The position numbers and the translations under genes are program-made. This document shows positions 1,244 through 9,075 of a DNA stretch of 64,000 nt, one piece after another. Under the pieces are notes generated by a model. The model saw nothing but the letters and a program-made list of their open reading frames with translations. It made no database searches and was not told the DNA's origin. The stretch's first letter is position 1. Each line of letters starts with the position of its first letter. The stretch covers positions 1 through 64,000 of the forward strand of contig CANGJI010000004.1 in the NCBI GenBank assembly GCA_947454135.1. Reading direction: 5' to 3'. This DNA is from Sphingomonadaceae bacterium. GTDB taxonomy: Bacteria; Pseudomonadota; Alphaproteobacteria; Sphingomonadales; Sphingomonadaceae.

Positions 1244-1651
1244 ATGCCCGCACAGAAGGGAAGCGCCTTTCTGCTGAAGATCAGCGATGGCGCAGCGACA
1301 CCGACCTACAACACCGTAGCCGGGCTGCGCACGACGCAGATGTCGATCAACGGCGAACTGGTGGTGATCACCAGCAAGGAATCGGGCGGCTGGCGCGAGT
1401 TGCTCTCGGGTGCGGGGACGCGCTCGGTCAGCGTGAGCGCGGCCGGCATCTTCCTCGGCAGCGCTGCCGAAGGGCAGGTACGCGGCAATGCGCTGGCGGG
1501 CACGATTACCGACTACGAGCTTTCCTTCGAAGGGGGAGAGAAGATGCGCGGCAAATTCCTTGTCCAGCGCCTCGACTACGCCGGCGATTTCAACGGCGAA
1601 CGCAACTACACCCTCTCGCTCGAAAGCTCGGGCGTGGTGGTGCAGGTATGA
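1244..1651 (+). CDS. Phage major tail protein, TP901-1 family (GTA gp9-like)
   Basis: 135 aa; 'QKGSAFLLKISDG...YNTVAGLRTTQMSINGELVVITSKESGGWRELLSGAG' typical of GTA major tail protein. Confidence 0.9.
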   Translation: MPAQKGSAFLLKISDGAATPTYNTVAGLRTTQMSINGELVVITSKESGGWRELLSGAGTRSVSVSAAGIFLGSAAEGQVRGNALAGTITDYELSFEGGEKMRGKFLVQRLDYAGDFNGERNYTLSLESSGVVVQV

Positions 1652-1980: not shown

Positions 1981-2174
1981 GCACGCGTTTCGGTGAAGCG
2001 GCAGCACGGCTTGCGGGCCAGGCAGCGCTGTTCATCGGCTGGACGCCCGACACGTTCTGGTCAGCCACACCCGCTGAACTCGCGGCGATCGTGATGGCCG
2101 CCGCGCCGCCGCCCGGCGACGGGATCGACCGCACCACCCTGACCGCGATGATGGAGCGCGACACGCATGGATAG
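1977..2174 (+). CDS. Phage tail assembly chaperone (rcc01693-like)
   Basis: 65 aa 'MSTRFGEAAARLAGQAALFIGWTPDTFWSATPAELAAIV'; ATGA overlap with upstream gene. Confidence 0.8.
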   Translation: MSTRFGEAAARLAGQAALFIGWTPDTFWSATPAELAAIVMAAAPPPGDGIDRTTLTAMMERDTHG

Positions 2175-2748
2175 TCTTTCAACGCTGGTCGTCGATGTGC
2201 GGGCCAGCACCGACGGGTTTGCCAGCGACATCGGCCAGATGCGCAGCAGCTTCGATTCGATCGTGGTCGACGGCTTCAGCCGGGGCAGCGATGTGCTTGA
2301 GCGCGGGCTGCTGAGTGCAGTCCGCCGCGGCAGCCTCGGCTTCGAGGACCTGCGCCGGACCGGCCTGCGCGTGATCGACGACATCGCGGCGCAGGCCTTG
2401 CGCGGCGGGCTCGCCTCGATCGGCATAGGCGGTTCAAGCAGTGGCGGCCTTGGTGGCGGAATCCTTGGGCTGGGAAGCCTGATCGGCTCGCTGTTCGGGC
2501 TGCCGGGGCGGGCGACAGGTGGGCCAGTCTCACCCGGACGACCCTACGTGGTGGGTGAGCGCGGACCGGAACTGTTTGTGCCGACATCAGCCGGGCAGGT
2601 CGATGCTGGCGGTGGCGGCAGCGGTGGCCGCTCGGTCAACGTTTCGATCCGGGTAGTGGCGCCGGAGGGCAGCAGCAGCCCGGAAAGCCTGCGGCGCTCC
2701 AGTCGCCAGGTGGCGCAGGCCGTGCGCCGTGCGCTCAGCGAATACTGA
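2167..2748 (+). CDS. Short tail tape measure protein (GTA gp11-like)
   Basis: 193 aa; 'GRATGGPVSPGRPYVVGERGPELFVPTSAGQV' tape-measure C-terminal motif. Confidence 0.85.
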   Translation: MDSLSTLVVDVRASTDGFASDIGQMRSSFDSIVVDGFSRGSDVLERGLLSAVRRGSLGFEDLRRTGLRVIDDIAAQALRGGLASIGIGGSSSGGLGGGILGLGSLIGSLFGLPGRATGGPVSPGRPYVVGERGPELFVPTSAGQVDAGGGGSGGRSVNVSIRVVAPEGSSSPESLRRSSRQVAQAVRRALSEY

Positions 2749-2783: not shown

Positions 2784-5138
2784 ATGAGCTTCTGGCTGGC
2801 ATGCCGCCGCACAGTGCAGGCAACCGATACGATCCAGCGGTTTGATCCGCGGTTCTGGACGGTCGACTTTCCGCGCCCGGCGATGGCTTCGGTGGTGACG
2901 ACCGCGCCCGATGCGCTGCGGGTCGATGCAGTGTTCCAGAAGACGAACGACCTGGTCGGGCTGATCTGGGAAAGCGCCGACCGGTGGGATCACCCGCTGC
3001 TCGCTTACGATACCAACCGCGACTACGCGCGCCTGACACTTTCGTTTCGCTGGCGTTCGAGCGGGGTCCTGCCGCTTGATGCGGTGAACGGACCGACATT
3101 GACCATCGAGGGGCGCGACGCAGCGGGCAATCGGCGCGGCTGGTATGTGCGCCTGTGGAACTACGCCGAAGGCACGCCGACCGATGCGGTGGTAACGCTG
3201 CCGTTCTCTGCGCTGGCGGGCGGCTTCATGCTGCCGGGGGAGGCCGATCCGGTTTATCCCTCGGACATCGACCGCGTGTTCATTTCGCTTGTGGCGCCGG
3301 GTTACTCGGCAACGGCGACGACGCCGTTTCCCGCAGCAGTGACGGGCTGGGCCGAGCTTAGCGCGATGCGGTGCAGCGGCCACAAGCCCATGCTGACAAT
3401 CGGCGATGTGATGGTGCCGCCACACGGGATCTCCATCGCGACGGGCTATGACGACGGCTACAACCAGACGCCCGCGCGTCTGCTGCGCACTATCCGCGGT
3501 CTCGGTTATCGCGGCAGCATCAATCACTACGTGGGAATGAGCCACTTCTTTCCGCTGGCGCCAGACGGCGCAGGCGGCTTCACGGTCGATCCGGCGCTGC
3601 CCGCGCTGAATGTTGCGGCGGAGCGTTGGCATGGCGCATTTCTTTCTGCCGCAAAGGCGATGGGATACACGGTCATCCTCTCGCAATCCTACGAGTTGCT
3701 CGCGCAGCATTGTCCCACGGCCTGGCAGCAGCGGGCCGCCGATGGCACGGCGGCGCGAACGGGCTGGTCGCCGCCTTCAGCCCTGCTCTCGCCCGCCAAC
3801 ACGGCAGCGACAGGGTGGCTGCGAAAGGTTGCCGTCCGGCTGGCAGGATTGCTCACGGAAGCCGGGCTTCCGGTGCGCTATCAGGTGGGCGAGCCCTGGT
3901 GGTGGGTCACTGCCGAGCGCAAGATCTGCCTGTACGACGATGCGGCAAAGGCCGCGCTGGGCGGCAATCCGGTGGTCATTCCCGACCTTGGCGCGGTGCT
4001 TACCGCCGAGCAGAAGTCGCTTCTGGACGCTGCGGGCGCCCTGCTCTCCGCATCGACAGCGAGCCTGACGGCTGCAGTACGCACCGCTGCTGGAACCGCG
4101 CCCTGCGAGACACTGCTGTTGGCATTCGTGCCGACCGTGCTCGATCCGGCCACACCCGAAGCACGGCGTGCGAACCTGCCGATCGGCTGGGCATCGCCTG
4201 CCTTCGATGTGCTGCAGCTTGAGGACTACGACTGGCTGATGGCCGGGTTCGAGGCGAGGCGAACGCGCGGACGGGCCGAAGCCGAGGCGCGGCTCGGCTA
4301 TCCGCGGGCCAAGCAGCACTACCTTTCCGGATTCGTCCTGAACGCCGCCGATGCTGAAGCGATGTGGCCGCTGATCGATGCAGCGGCAAGCGAAGCGCGG
4401 GCAATGGGTGTCGCTGAGACTTTCATCTGGGCGCTGCCCCAGGTGGCTCGGGACGGCTTTACCCGCCTGCCCGACGCCGCGGCCGGAGCAGCCAGCGAGG
4501 ACGACATTATGCAGCCCTTTGACGACGTGCTCTTCCCCATCGCGATCGGCCGATCGGCGACGGTGACACCCGAGTTCTCGACCAATGTGACCATCACGGC
4601 TTCGGGGTTCGAGCGGCGCAACAGCCTATGGTCCGACGCGCGGCTGCGCTTCGATGTGGGGCCGGGGGTGCGTTCGGAAGCAGAACTGGGCGAACTCATC
4701 GCCTTCTTCCGCGCACGGCGCGGGAAGGCACGCGGGTTCCGGTTGCGTGATCCTTCGGACTACAGCTCGAACGGGATGACCGGCACGCCGACCGCGCTCG
4801 ATCAGGTGATCGGGACGGGAAACGGGGCGACAGCGCGCTTTGCTCTGGTGAAGGCCTATGGGTCAGGGCTCGACGCACAGCAGCGGCGAATTACTCGCCC
4901 GCGAGCAGAAAGCCTGCTGGTTAGCGTGGACGGCGCGGCTGTGACCAACTGGACGCTCGATGCGCTGGGCGAGATCGTGTTCGCTGATGCCCCGGCCATG
5001 GGCACGACGGTGTGTGCTGGCTTCCTCTTCGATGTGCCGGTGCGGTTCGCCGAAGACCAGCTCGACGTTTCGGGCACGGCCTTTGCCGCAGGAGAAGCAC
5101 CGAGCGTGCCCCTCATCGAATTGCGCGAGGATGCCTGA
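2784..5138 (+). CDS. GTA distal tail protein: ~570-aa TIM-barrel-like N-terminal module fused to C-terminal DUF2460
   Basis: 784 aa; C-terminal 'FPIAIGRSATVTPEFSTNVTITASGFERRNSLWSDARLRFDVGPGVRSEAEL' = DUF2460/TIGR02217; N-terminal contains GH-like 'YQVGEPWWW' and 'FDVLQLEDYDWL'. Confidence 0.8.
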   Translation: MSFWLACRRTVQATDTIQRFDPRFWTVDFPRPAMASVVTTAPDALRVDAVFQKTNDLVGLIWESADRWDHPLLAYDTNRDYARLTLSFRWRSSGVLPLDAVNGPTLTIEGRDAAGNRRGWYVRLWNYAEGTPTDAVVTLPFSALAGGFMLPGEADPVYPSDIDRVFISLVAPGYSATATTPFPAAVTGWAELSAMRCSGHKPMLTIGDVMVPPHGISIATGYDDGYNQTPARLLRTIRGLGYRGSINHYVGMSHFFPLAPDGAGGFTVDPALPALNVAAERWHGAFLSAAKAMGYTVILSQSYELLAQHCPTAWQQRAADGTAARTGWSPPSALLSPANTAATGWLRKVAVRLAGLLTEAGLPVRYQVGEPWWWVTAERKICLYDDAAKAALGGNPVVIPDLGAVLTAEQKSLLDAAGALLSASTASLTAAVRTAAGTAPCETLLLAFVPTVLDPATPEARRANLPIGWASPAFDVLQLEDYDWLMAGFEARRTRGRAEAEARLGYPRAKQHYLSGFVLNAADAEAMWPLIDAAASEARAMGVAETFIWALPQVARDGFTRLPDAAAGAASEDDIMQPFDDVLFPIAIGRSATVTPEFSTNVTITASGFERRNSLWSDARLRFDVGPGVRSEAELGELIAFFRARRGKARGFRLRDPSDYSSNGMTGTPTALDQVIGTGNGATARFALVKAYGSGLDAQQRRITRPRAESLLVSVDGAAVTNWTLDALGEIVFADAPAMGTTVCAGFLFDVPVRFAEDQLDVSGTAFAAGEAPSVPLIELREDA

Positions 5139-5139
5139 A

Positions 5140-5970
5140 ATGCCCGAGAGCACGCGCATCTGGTTCAGCCAGCCGCTTGAGACCGTCGCGATCTGGTGGC
5201 GGCTCGAACGGCGCGATGGTGTGACACTTGGTTTCACCAGCCATGACCGGGACCTGTCGTTTGACGGTCTGGTTCACCGCACTGCTCCCGGCATGGTGCC
5301 TTCCGCGATCCGCCGCACAGCCGATTTCGAGGCAGACAGCGCCGAAGTGGCAGGCGCGCTCAGCCACGATTCGATCCGCGAGGCCGACCTTGCGGCGGGC
5401 CGGTTCGACGGCGGATCGATTGCCATGGGATTGGTCGATTGGGAAACGCTTGAGCGCATGACGCTCTACGCAGGCACGATCGGTACGGTCGGCCACGAAG
5501 GCGCCGGCTTCTCCGCCGAACTGCGGTCGGTCAAGGACCTGCTGGCGCGGCAGATCGTTCCTCGGACTGCGCCGACCTGCCGCGCGGAGTTCTGCGCGGA
5601 GGGCTGCACGCTTTCCGCCAGTGCCTTTACCCATCAGGCGACCTTGGCAGAGGTATCGACAGACGGCGGTTCAGTGCGCGTCTCAGGCGGTCCCCCCGTG
5701 GCGTCGCTGGCCTTCGGAACAATGCGCTGGATCGACGGCCCCGACGCCGGACTCACGCGTCGGATCGAGACTGTCGAAGGGGCATGGCTGGTACTCGACC
5801 GAACGACGGCGAGCGCAGTTGCGACCGGAACGCTGATCGAACTGCGCGAGGGCTGCGATCACACGCTCGACACCTGCGCGACCCGTTTTGGCAACGCCGT
5901 CAACTTTCAGGGTGAGCCGTTCCTGCCAGGCAACGACCTGCTGACCCGCTACCCGGCGCCGCAGCAGTGA
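5140..5970 (+). CDS. DUF2163 family protein (GTA gp13-like hub)
   Basis: 'VTLGFTSHDRDLSFDGLVHRTAPGMVPSAI...' and C-terminal 'GCDHTLDTCATRFGNAVNFQGEPFLPGNDLLTRYP' typical of DUF2163; GAGG upstream of ATG. Confidence 0.9.
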   Translation: MPESTRIWFSQPLETVAIWWRLERRDGVTLGFTSHDRDLSFDGLVHRTAPGMVPSAIRRTADFEADSAEVAGALSHDSIREADLAAGRFDGGSIAMGLVDWETLERMTLYAGTIGTVGHEGAGFSAELRSVKDLLARQIVPRTAPTCRAEFCAEGCTLSASAFTHQATLAEVSTDGGSVRVSGGPPVASLAFGTMRWIDGPDAGLTRRIETVEGAWLVLDRTTASAVATGTLIELREGCDHTLDTCATRFGNAVNFQGEPFLPGNDLLTRYPAPQQ

Positions 5971-6377
5971 ACGCCGCGCTTGCGACGGCCGCCATGCAGC
6001 TGGTCGGCACGCGCTTCCGCCTGCATGGCCGGGATCCTGCGACGGGGCTAGACTGTGTCGGTGTCGTGGCGGAGGCGATGCGGCGGGCGGGGATCGCCCC
6101 CGTGACCCCGGCAGGATACCGCCTGCGCAACGCATCGGTGAGCGGCTTGCTGCCCTTCGCCCGCGCCAACCACTTCGAGCCGGTCGGGGCCGCCGAGGCG
6201 GATGTCCTGCTGGTGATGGTGAACCCGGTCCAACCGCACCTCGTCGTCCGTACGTCTGAGGGCTTTGTCCATGCGCACGCCGGGATCGGACGGGTCACCT
6301 ACCTTTCCGGCACCCTGCCCTGGCCGGCCACGAGCGGATGGCGCGTGCCAAGCCCCAAGCAAGCAATCGGGAACTGA
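5967..6377 (+). CDS. NlpC/P60 family peptidase (GTA gp14-like)
   Basis: 'GRDPATGLDCVGVVAEAMRRAG' Cys motif and 'PHLVVRTSEGFVHAH' His motif; GTGA overlap with previous gene. Confidence 0.85.
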   Translation: MNAALATAAMQLVGTRFRLHGRDPATGLDCVGVVAEAMRRAGIAPVTPAGYRLRNASVSGLLPFARANHFEPVGAAEADVLLVMVNPVQPHLVVRTSEGFVHAHAGIGRVTYLSGTLPWPATSGWRVPSPKQAIGN

Positions 6378-6382
6378 CTTCT

Positions 6383-8599
6383 ATGGCTACTTTGCTGCTG
6401 ACCGCTGTTGGCTCCGCTTTCGGGGGGCCGATAGGCGGTGCGATCGGGGCACTTGTCGGCCGCCAGATAGACACCATGATCTTCGGCGGGCGCAGGGTCG
6501 AAGGCCCGCGCCTGAAGGATCTGACGGTCCAGACATCCAGCTACGGTTCGGCGCTCCCACTGCATTTCGGCAAGATGCGGGCAGCGGGGAGCGTGATCTG
6601 GGCAACCGAACTCATCGAGCACAAGGAATCGACGGGGGGCGGCAAAGGGCGGCCATCGGTTACCAGCTATGCCTATTCGTCTTCGTTCGCCGTGGCGATC
6701 AGCAGTCGGCCAATTGCGGGCATCGGGCGGATCTGGGCGGATGGCAACCTGCTGCGCGGTGCCAACGGCGATCTCAAGGTCGGCGGCAAGCTGCGCGTTC
6801 ACCTCGGCCACGGAGACCAGACAGCCGATCCGCTGATGGCGCAGGCGGAGGGGACTGCGCGCTGCCCTGCCTATCGCGGCCTTGCCTATGTCGTGTTCGA
6901 GGACCTTGAACTGGCAGACTACGGCAACCGGCTGCCTTCGCTGACATTCGAGATACTGGCAGACGCTTCAAGCACTTCGATTGCCGCGGTTGCGCGGACA
7001 ATCCTGCCGGAGGTCGTCGTCAGCAACCTCGACATTGGCCTTGCGGGGTTCAGCATCGATCAGGGATCTGCGGGCGACTCGCTGGCCGTGATTGCCGATG
7101 CCGTGCCCATCGCGTTCGCGGTCGTCGGCGGCGCTTTGGCAGTACACTCCGCGGAGCCCACCGGACCGGTCGTGCCCATACTCCTGCCAGAGCCGGCTGC
7201 GGCGAACAGAGATGCCCAATCTGCCGAAGCAAAGGCCAGCGGCTGGTCCCGCAAGCGAGAGCCGCTGCCGCAGGTGCGGCAGTGCGGGATCCGATACTAT
7301 GATGTCGCCCGCGACTATCAGCCGGGTCTGCAACGCGGGATTGGCAGGAGCGAACGGGGCGATCTGCAAGTCATCGAACTGCCGGCGGCGCTCAGCGCCG
7401 CGCAAGCCCAGACGCTTGCCAGCAATGCCAGCCGCCGTGCCACACGGCCGGCCGACACAATCAGCTACCGCGTAACGGAAATCGATCCAGCGATCGTTCC
7501 AGGAGCCTTCGTCGAAGTACCGATCGCCTCCGGACTATGGCGCGTTGCACAATGGGAATGGCAGCAGGATGGCGTTCTGCTGTCGCTCGCGGCCTGTCCA
7601 TCGAACGGCGGCAGCATGACGGGCGCGGCGGTCATGGCCGACCCGGGCCGCATCAATGCGGCAACCGATCTTGCCAGCACACCGACCGTTCTAGGTGCTT
7701 TCGCCTTGCCGTGGGACGGGACCGGCAGCGGCACAACTCCGGCTGTCTTCGTTGCCGCATCAGGGGCCAGCGCCGGGTGGACCGGTGCGGCGCTGCTGGC
7801 AGATCTCGGCGGCGATGGGGGCGCTCTGACCTCCATCGGCACGACCGGACGGCGAAGGGCGCGCATGGGCCGCACGGTTGGCACCTTTCCAGCTGCCTCA
7901 CCGCTTCTGCTGGACCGCCAATCAACCCTCGATGTCGTGCTCGCGGGCCCGGACCAGACCTTGGAGGATGCCAGTCTGATCCAACTACTTCAGGGTGCGA
8001 ACCGGGCGCGGATCGGCAGCGAAATCGTGCAATTCGCCAGTGCAAAACCGCTCGGCGGTGGAGTGTGGCGGCTCAGCGGCTGGTTGCGTGGCCGCGGCGG
8101 CACGGAATGGGCAATCGGATCCCATACGGCCAACGAACCGTTCGTGCTGATAGAAGACACGCTGGTGCAACTCGATGCCGCACAGATCGGCGATCCCGCT
8201 ACGACAAGGATCGTTGCTGTCGGGCTCGGCGATACGGCTGCAGTGAGCGTCTCGATCAGCGATCCTGGTGCGACCTTGCGTCCGCTGTCACCGGTCCATG
8301 GGAAAGCCGTCCGACAGGCCGATGGGACGATGGCGCTGGACTGGGTGCGCCGAGCACGCGGTGCCTGGCGATGGCTCGACGGTGTCGATGCACCGCTCAA
8401 CGAGGAAGCGGAGCGCTGGGAAATCACCGTGGGCGATCCGGACGCACCGGTGCTGCGCTGGCAGACCACCGGACCATCGCTTGCGGTGGCGACCGGGCAG
8501 ATTGCCGATCTGCCAGCAGGCGCACCGCGCTACTTCGCCGTCCGCCAGATCGGACGGAACGCCGCCTCACCCGCGCTGCGCATCGACTTTCCCGCCTGA
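6383..8599 (+). CDS. GTA tail/baseplate protein (gp15-like), short form
   Basis: ~738 aa; N-terminal 'LTAVGSAFGGPIGGAIGALVGRQID' and 'LTVQTSSYGSALPLHFGKMRAAGSVIWATEL' match gp15-type tail proteins; C-terminal 'RGRGGTEWAIGSHTANEPFVLI'. Confidence 0.85.
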   Translation: MATLLLTAVGSAFGGPIGGAIGALVGRQIDTMIFGGRRVEGPRLKDLTVQTSSYGSALPLHFGKMRAAGSVIWATELIEHKESTGGGKGRPSVTSYAYSSSFAVAISSRPIAGIGRIWADGNLLRGANGDLKVGGKLRVHLGHGDQTADPLMAQAEGTARCPAYRGLAYVVFEDLELADYGNRLPSLTFEILADASSTSIAAVARTILPEVVVSNLDIGLAGFSIDQGSAGDSLAVIADAVPIAFAVVGGALAVHSAEPTGPVVPILLPEPAAANRDAQSAEAKASGWSRKREPLPQVRQCGIRYYDVARDYQPGLQRGIGRSERGDLQVIELPAALSAAQAQTLASNASRRATRPADTISYRVTEIDPAIVPGAFVEVPIASGLWRVAQWEWQQDGVLLSLAACPSNGGSMTGAAVMADPGRINAATDLASTPTVLGAFALPWDGTGSGTTPAVFVAASGASAGWTGAALLADLGGDGGALTSIGTTGRRRARMGRTVGTFPAASPLLLDRQSTLDVVLAGPDQTLEDASLIQLLQGANRARIGSEIVQFASAKPLGGGVWRLSGWLRGRGGTEWAIGSHTANEPFVLIEDTLVQLDAAQIGDPATTRIVAVGLGDTAAVSVSISDPGATLRPLSPVHGKAVRQADGTMALDWVRRARGAWRWLDGVDAPLNEEAERWEITVGDPDAPVLRWQTTGPSLAVATGQIADLPAGAPRYFAVRQIGRNAASPALRIDFPA

Positions 8600-8619: not shown

Positions 8620-9075
8620 ATGACCGACCCCCTCAGCTTCTCCTCTGCTTCACCGCGCCACGCGCTGCCGCTACTTTTTGCCGGCCAAAGCCAGAAAGAA
8701 GTCATCGTCAACGAGGCGCTACTCGCCGCGGACATCCTGCTGCATCCGGCGATCGAAGCAGTAGCCTCCAGCCCCCCCGCAGCACCCGCCAACGGCCAGT
8801 GCTGGCTGGTGGGGACAGCGGCGACGGGGGCATTTGCAGGACAGACCGACCGGATCGCTGCGTGGAGCGAGGGGGGCTGGCGATTCTTCGCCCCACGCGA
8901 GGGCATCCGCGCCTACGACATCGCTGCGGCTGCATATCGCCTCTATGCCGGAGGTGCATGGCGCCTTGCCTCTGCGCCGACCGCACCGACCGGCGGAAGC
9001 ATCGTCGATAGCGAGGCACGGGATGCGATCTCCAACATCATCACATCGCTACGCACCGCCGGAGTCATTGGCTAA
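8620..9075 (+). CDS. DUF2793 domain protein (putative GTA tail fibre component)
   Basis: 'LPLLFAGQSQKEVIVNEALLAADILLHPAIE...WLVGTAATGAFAGQTDRIAAWSEGGWRFFAPREG' = DUF2793. Confidence 0.85.
   Translation: MTDPLSFSSASPRHALPLLFAGQSQKEVIVNEALLAADILLHPAIEAVASSPPAAPANGQCWLVGTAATGAFAGQTDRIAAWSEGGWRFFAPREGIRAYDIAAAAYRLYAGGAWRLASAPTAPTGGSIVDSEARDAISNIITSLRTAGVIG

Follow-up and report, generated by a model that had tools for sequence, protein, structure and literature searches.

This locus raises the question of where the TIM-barrel module on the tail tip of a sphingomonad gene transfer agent (GTA) came from and what it does there. A first-pass annotation had placed such a module on the DUF2460 distal tail protein (gp12) and found the corresponding part of the gp15-like "megatron" apparently missing. 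The sequence studied, referred to here as the window, comprises 64,000 nucleotides of a Sphingomonadaceae bacterium (GCA_947454135.1, contig CANGJI010000004.1, positions 1 to 64,000, forward strand), and the host of the cluster is a sphingomonad close to Novosphingobium. At position 1 the window meets a contig end that cuts through the GTA cluster, so that only gp6 onward is visible, and the locus is the 3' tail-tip portion of a gene cluster of the RcGTA-like type. Such clusters are defined by the order terminase, portal, protease, and HK97 capsid, followed further on by the tail tube, gp10, a short tape measure, and gp12 to gp15. The part from gp6 onward is found in this order in the window, and the complete set is found in relatives (L019, L067, and L069), where the terminase, portal, protease, and HK97 capsid genes lie upstream in GTA order; L067, among the closest relatives, has 81% DNA identity across the first 10 kb. 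No match to a capsid gene was found in this assembly, which consists of 151 contigs, is 93% complete, and has the cluster cut by the contig start. Sphingomonad clusters are already known to be RcGTA-like, and many clusters of the Sphingomonadales have been classed as GTAs by GTA-Hunter (PMC6821227); the NCTSP and DUF2460 domains are likewise already known in Pfam.

All of the window genes described here lie on the + strand. The window encodes a tail tube protein (gp9; positions 1244..1651, identified with Pfam), a short tape measure protein of 193 amino acids, which is a GTA-like length (2167..2748), and the 784-aa gp12 fusion, identified with Pfam and AlphaFold2 (2784..5138). These are followed by a 279-aa hub protein, gp13, with Gp84_N and BR0599 matches and no NCTSP fusion in this locus (5131..5970), a divergent 136-aa NlpC/P60-type cell wall peptidase, gp14, recognized by a weak TIGR02219 match and its cluster position (5967..6377), and the short gp15/megatron of 738 aa (6383..8599). 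The coordinates and lengths first given for the gp12 and gp15 reading frames are correct. A DUF2793 protein is encoded immediately 3' of gp15 (8620..9075), and no phage genes were recognized among the open reading frames just beyond it. Elsewhere, inserts were seen between gp13 and gp14 in L025 (5624-8912, 3.3 kb), where the two longest open reading frames have no Pfam match, and between gp14 and gp15 in L012 (12615-14765, 2.1 kb). An unverified phage record from human feces (L066; MT840053.1, "Bacteriophage sp.") resembles a fragment of a sphingomonad GTA tail cluster from tail tube to gp15 and has the same gp12 fusion.

The ATG start of gp12 at position 2784 is preceded by a purine-rich, Shine-Dalgarno-like stretch (AACGAGGGGCC-ATG), and the MxxWLA start of the protein is common to its relatives. 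Three domains follow one another along the polypeptide. The first is a beta-rich NCTSP_N domain (PF23844; residues 17-207, positions 2832..3404, E value of 8e-99), which is homologous to the N terminus of N4 gp65, and the second is a TIM-barrel_NCTSP domain (PF23845; residues 212-559, positions 3417..4460, E value of 2e-163), for which the nearest solved structure is N4 gp64 (9yf5/9lc0). The third is a DUF2460 or Rcc01695-type distal tail domain (residues 580-781, positions 4521..5126, E value of 1e-75). PF23844 and PF23845 occur in this order and score 329 and 544 bits against a curated cutoff of 27, and TIGR02217 scores 197 bits against a cutoff of 137, with the gene lying between those for the tape measure and the hub. 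The AlphaFold2 model (23 homologues in the alignment) has a mean pLDDT of 87, values below 50 occur for at least three residues only at the linker 567-577 and the loop 598-617, and a (beta/alpha)8 pattern extends across residues 212-559, with strand-helix alternation over 217-549. The N-terminal TIM barrel that had been proposed is therefore borne out by both Pfam and the model, and the motifs from which it was proposed lie at strand ends of the barrel (YDDGYN at b1, GEPWWW at b4, LQLEDYDWL at b6, and IWALPQ at b8). The region also matches existing annotation, as had been expected, in the form of Pfam families of the N4 gp64/gp65 type. On the strength of these domain matches, gp12 is an N4-type receptor-binding/tail-sheath arm, composed of NCTSP_N and the TIM barrel, fused to a DUF2460 ring domain.

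The best solved relative of the N-terminal module is N4 gp64, both by sequence (E value of 4e-35) and by fold (1e-22), and gp65 is also close. In a Foldseek search of the PDB with the 784-aa model, N4 gp64 occupied ranks 1 and 2, N4 gp65 ranks 3 and 4, and the R4C distal tail protein rank 5. In phage N4 (Schitoviridae), gp64 and gp65 form a six-fold tail sheath, and the receptor NfrA is bound by gp65 (PMC12633501; PMC12892993). The two systems share the same NCTSP_N and TIM-barrel families, with 30% identity over the barrel; however, the N4 barrel is divided between two proteins, of which gp65 has many more domains, whereas in the window it belongs to a single polypeptide ending in DUF2460. 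The division was seen in L147 (phage N4 type, MK931297), where hidden Markov model matches assign the first barrel strands to gp65 (375-416) and the remainder to gp64 (109-409). At about 30% identity, the module occurs in phi92-like and V5-like myophages, Goslar, Lokivirus, and Acinetobacter siphophages. The phi92 gp142, Goslar 00086, and Lokivirus gp17 proteins and their relatives have NCTSP_N and the barrel at ~28 to 36% identity but are myophage or siphophage tail proteins without DUF2460. Conversely, RcGTA Rcc01695 (gp12) and the R4C Dit protein have the DUF2460 domain and the same position in the cluster, but RcGTA gp12 is ~210 aa in length and lacks the N-terminal arm.

The Pfam matches of gp15 are Phage-tail_3 (residues 227-393) and Rcc01698_C (493-588), whereas GTA_TIM (PF13547; cutoff of 27 bits) has no match in gp15, in gp12, or in the whole genome. 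The protein aligns with the RcGTA megatron Rcc01698 over its first ~200 aa and again in the C-terminal half, which corresponds to the central and fiber-binding parts, but the peripheral GTA_TIM domain of the megatron (230-744) is absent. At the junction (6980..7063, + strand), the N-terminal part joins the Phage-tail_3/central part directly, without a counterpart of megatron residues ~230-744. The megatron model NF048004 scores 367 bits, through its N- and C-terminal parts only, against an equivalog cutoff of 800 bits, so that gp15 falls short of a full-length megatron. The top PDB matches of its AlphaFold model (pLDDT of 79.6) are the R4C and RcGTA megatrons, and the model contains no barrel. 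The possibility of a GTA_TIM domain hidden in gp15 was rejected by the Pfam matches, the AlphaFold model, and the whole-genome search. Longer gp15 proteins of ~1,170 to 1,280 aa were observed in L005-L007, L061 (Lacusarx), and L062 (RXM), with a ~450- to 500-aa insert at the megatron peripheral position. These inserts did not match the peripheral profile, Pfam scans of L005 and L061 were without GTA_TIM, and the hub proteins of the same five loci have an insert of ~200 to 300 aa.

Domains were counted in 251 Sphingomonadales genomes, over the curated cutoff, and in a class-wide sample of 389 genomes. DUF2460 was found in 137 of the 251, and 134 of those 137 contained the NCTSP barrel (PF23845), with the DUF2460 match lying ~40 to 60 bases 3' of the barrel match and the two generally sharing one open frame; GTA_TIM rose above the cutoff in none of the 251. 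The class sample contained GTA_TIM in 40 genomes, NCTSP in 5, and both together in none of the 389. Four of the five NCTSP genomes came from the family of the window, and one (G382) came from another. These counts show the NCTSP barrel and the megatron GTA_TIM domain to be mutually exclusive. Among 80 named sphingomonad loci, which include Novosphingobium, Sphingobium, Sphingomonas, Sphingopyxis, Erythrobacter, Qipengyuania, Blastomonas, Polymorphobacter, and others, 79 encode NCTSP_N, the TIM barrel, and DUF2460 in one frame, gp15 is mostly 700 to 800 aa in length, and the megatron peripheral domain is found in none. Non-sphingomonad GTA loci mostly have a DUF2460 protein of ~200 to 215 aa and a gp15 of ~1,100 to 1,500 aa. 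The gp12 fusion is intact in most of 49 genera, and at least 5 of the 134 fusion genes carry a stop or frameshift (G240, G010, G121, G031, and G065). The architecture is order-wide and not a local rearrangement. The stops or frameshifts in the fusion genes of L012, L013, L014, G240, and G031 suggest local GTA decay.

The same module is found elsewhere on related tail tips. In four prophage-like loci of the Sphingomonadales (L001-L004), NCTSP_N and the TIM barrel are joined to the N terminus of the hub protein gp13, DUF2460 is a separate protein of ~210 aa, and gp15 is short. A compact GTA-like cluster from another alphaproteobacterial family (L008, in G382:C3), with a 167-aa tape measure, has the same arrangement of a short gp15, an NCTSP module on the hub, and a separate ~210-aa DUF2460 protein. 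These loci resemble the sphingomonad GTAs in having the module together with a short gp15 but differ from them in the protein to which the module is joined. In L003 and L004, an insert of ~40 to 75 residues interrupts the NCTSP barrel. Tetraselmis viridis virus S20 (L060, 3686-5443) has a Laminin_G_3 domain, a laminin-G/ConA-like lectin, at the hub N terminus where other loci have the NCTSP module. Taken with the NCTSP-hub loci, the S20 lectin indicates that tails of this type bear TIM barrels or lectins at one of three sites, namely the ring protein, the hub, or the megatron. In the barrel tree, Lokivirus and N4 cluster with the copies joined to the hub (94/93), and a separate, weakly supported group (66/89) contains the GTA copies; because the two sets group apart, fusion to the hub and fusion to the distal tail protein were likely separate events.

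The first-pass annotation had suggested that the module either moved within the tail tip or was acquired independently. Relocation of the megatron GTA_TIM module to the distal tail protein would agree with the presence of exactly one barrel type per cluster, never two, and with both being TIM barrels on the tail tip. However, a profile-profile comparison (hhalign) of the barrel with the megatron peripheral/GTA_TIM region gave a probability of 0.5%, that is, no detectable sequence homology, the best folds are those of N4 gp64 and gp65, with no megatrons among the 50 Foldseek PDB matches listed, and the NCTSP barrel brings its own NCTSP_N domain, as it does in phages. Given that no homology to the megatron peripheral region was detected, a move from gp15 is extremely improbable, and independent acquisition of the barrel fits the sequence comparisons better; the source of the module appears to be the phage NCTSP pool rather than the GTA_TIM domain. 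A related question is whether gp15 lost anything. In a concatenated tail-tip tree (DUF2460, gp13, and gp15), the sphingomonad GTAs form one clade (100/99), and all tips with a long gp15 fall to the same side of one branch (95/92), amounting to one short/long change. It may be that the short gp15 came first, that the peripheral GTA_TIM domain was inserted on the way to the Rhodobacterales-type GTAs and related phages, and that this domain was at no time part of the sphingomonad GTAs, with the NCTSP arm as one of several alternative tip modules. The single change and the occurrence of a short gp15 in NCTSP-hub prophages and other phages agree with such an ancestral split; on the other side, the tree is unrooted, and approximately unbiased (AU) tests allow either of two sister groups for the sphingomonad tips, the core RcGTA type (p-AU, 0.11) and the NCTSP-hub prophages (p-AU, 0.19). 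The chances of an ancestral split are about even, and it concerns history only, being compatible with the N4-type arm as an explanation of the tip. Since the trees and AU tests accommodate either direction of the change, the "missing" gp15 domain holds as a description, supported by Pfam, the AlphaFold model, and the whole-genome search, and not as a demonstrated loss.

Conservation within the barrel bears on its function. The residues that do not vary across 32 barrels from GTAs, prophages, podophages, siphophages, and myophages are E304, E370, D385, D475, E480, W549, and D557; D223 is 97% conserved, being kept wherever the residue is present. Three of the invariant acids are E304, right after barrel strand 3 (codon at 3693..3695, + strand), E370 of the GEPWWW motif, at the end of strand 4 (3891..3893), and E480 of QLEDYDW, at the end of strand 6 (4221..4223); several of the conserved residues lie at the C-terminal ends of strands 1, 3, 4, 6, and 8. 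The protein shares with glycoside hydrolases (GH) a TIM barrel with conserved carboxylates (E304, E370, E480, and D223) on its C-terminal face, and the Foldseek matches scatter over GH31, GH14, PgaB, and GH5. In clan GH-A, the catalytic pair is found at strands 4 and 7. The acids of the NCTSP barrel follow strands 3, 4, and 6 instead of forming this pair, and the barrel may therefore only bind. The invariant residues have the look expected of a kept carbohydrate pocket, for which binding alone is possible, and putative cleavage of a glycan is possible as well. For a relative of the module, phi92 gp142, the table of a review gives the entry glycosidase. In eight pairs with Novosphingobium-like relatives, the dN/dS of the barrel is 0.06 to 0.19, like that of DUF2460 (0.05 to 0.2 across the three domains), which shows the barrel sequence to be under purifying selection.

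By analogy with characterized particles, the N4-type arm on the DUF2460 ring probably provides six tip arms that bind, and perhaps hydrolyze, a surface glycan in place of the megatron peripheral domains. The DUF2460 distal tail proteins of RcGTA (PMC7296036) and R4C (PMC10276861) are hexamers, and the N terminus of the RcGTA protein touches the hub and the megatron (PMC7296036). With the stoichiometry of those two particles, DUF2460 would form a hexameric ring below the tail tube, and the natural inference from the RcGTA contacts is that six NCTSP arms would emerge at the tail/baseplate junction. These arms would take over the surface-glycan role of three megatron peripheral domains and would bind, and perhaps hydrolyze, a sphingomonad surface glycan, giving the particle access to the outer membrane; the short megatron and gp14 would then act as in RcGTA. 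The suggestion of the first-pass annotation that the module could alter the way in which the particle penetrates a capsule is plausible. The RcGTA megatron peripheral domain also contacts a detachable tailspike, TspA, which is lacking outside the Rhodobacterales (PMC13420450); sphingomonads would need some other means.

Other roles for the arm are less probable. It might have a structural role as a sheath or clamp, in the manner of N4 gp64, stabilizing a short tail without any role in glycan recognition, as the family name and the encircling of the tail tube by N4 gp64:gp65 would suggest. Yet N4 gp65 is a receptor-binding protein, the acids at the mouth of the barrel are conserved in GTAs, prophages, and all three types of phage tail, as for a binding or catalytic pocket, and a tube of several rings is probably too long to be sheathed by six copies at the tip; a purely structural role is accordingly unlikely. 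That the cluster is a decaying prophage and the fusion an incidental remnant would be consistent with the lack of the fusion in about half of the sampled genomes and with the few broken copies, but this is very improbable in view of the intact fusion in most of the 49 genera, the low dN/dS in all three domains, the compact GTA gene order with its 193-aa tape measure, and the DUF2793 gene without a recognized phage gene just 3' of it. A more far-reaching form of the glycan-binding arm is rather doubtful: that Sphingomonadales GTAs exchanged the whole RcGTA-type adsorption strategy for an N4-style one, in which the barrels of the six DUF2460-anchored arms are active glycosidases for a sphingomonad-specific glycan (a sphingan capsule or a glycosphingolipid headgroup) and the tip sets an order-level recipient range. 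The sphingomonad outer membrane carries glycosphingolipids, and it is speculation that these could be a reason for a different glycan tool.

A conserved "ancient prophage" of the Sphingomonadales was reportedly described by Viswanathan et al. in 2017; a literature search, with that paper outside its reach, found no paper on the fusion in GTAs, its order-wide spread, or the exclusion of GTA_TIM. One practical consequence is that a full-length megatron or a 200-aa gp12, used as a marker in searches for GTAs, may mis-score sphingomonad clusters. According to a 2026 preprint (PMC13420450), no function is known for the peripheral TIM barrel of the megatron, the OB domain of the hub, or the insertion domain of the distal tail. 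The architecture bears on what GTAs recognize on their recipients and on how the particles of one lineage stay within that lineage. The Sphingomonadales present a natural domain swap across an order, with one TIM-barrel module absent and an unrelated phage module anchored on another ring, which makes the role of the tip module testable through one segment of one gene and connects the tips of GTAs with the tail modules of N4, phi92, and Lokivirus. We infer that an N4-type arm without GTA_TIM is the Sphingomonadales GTAs' own design for attachment to cells.
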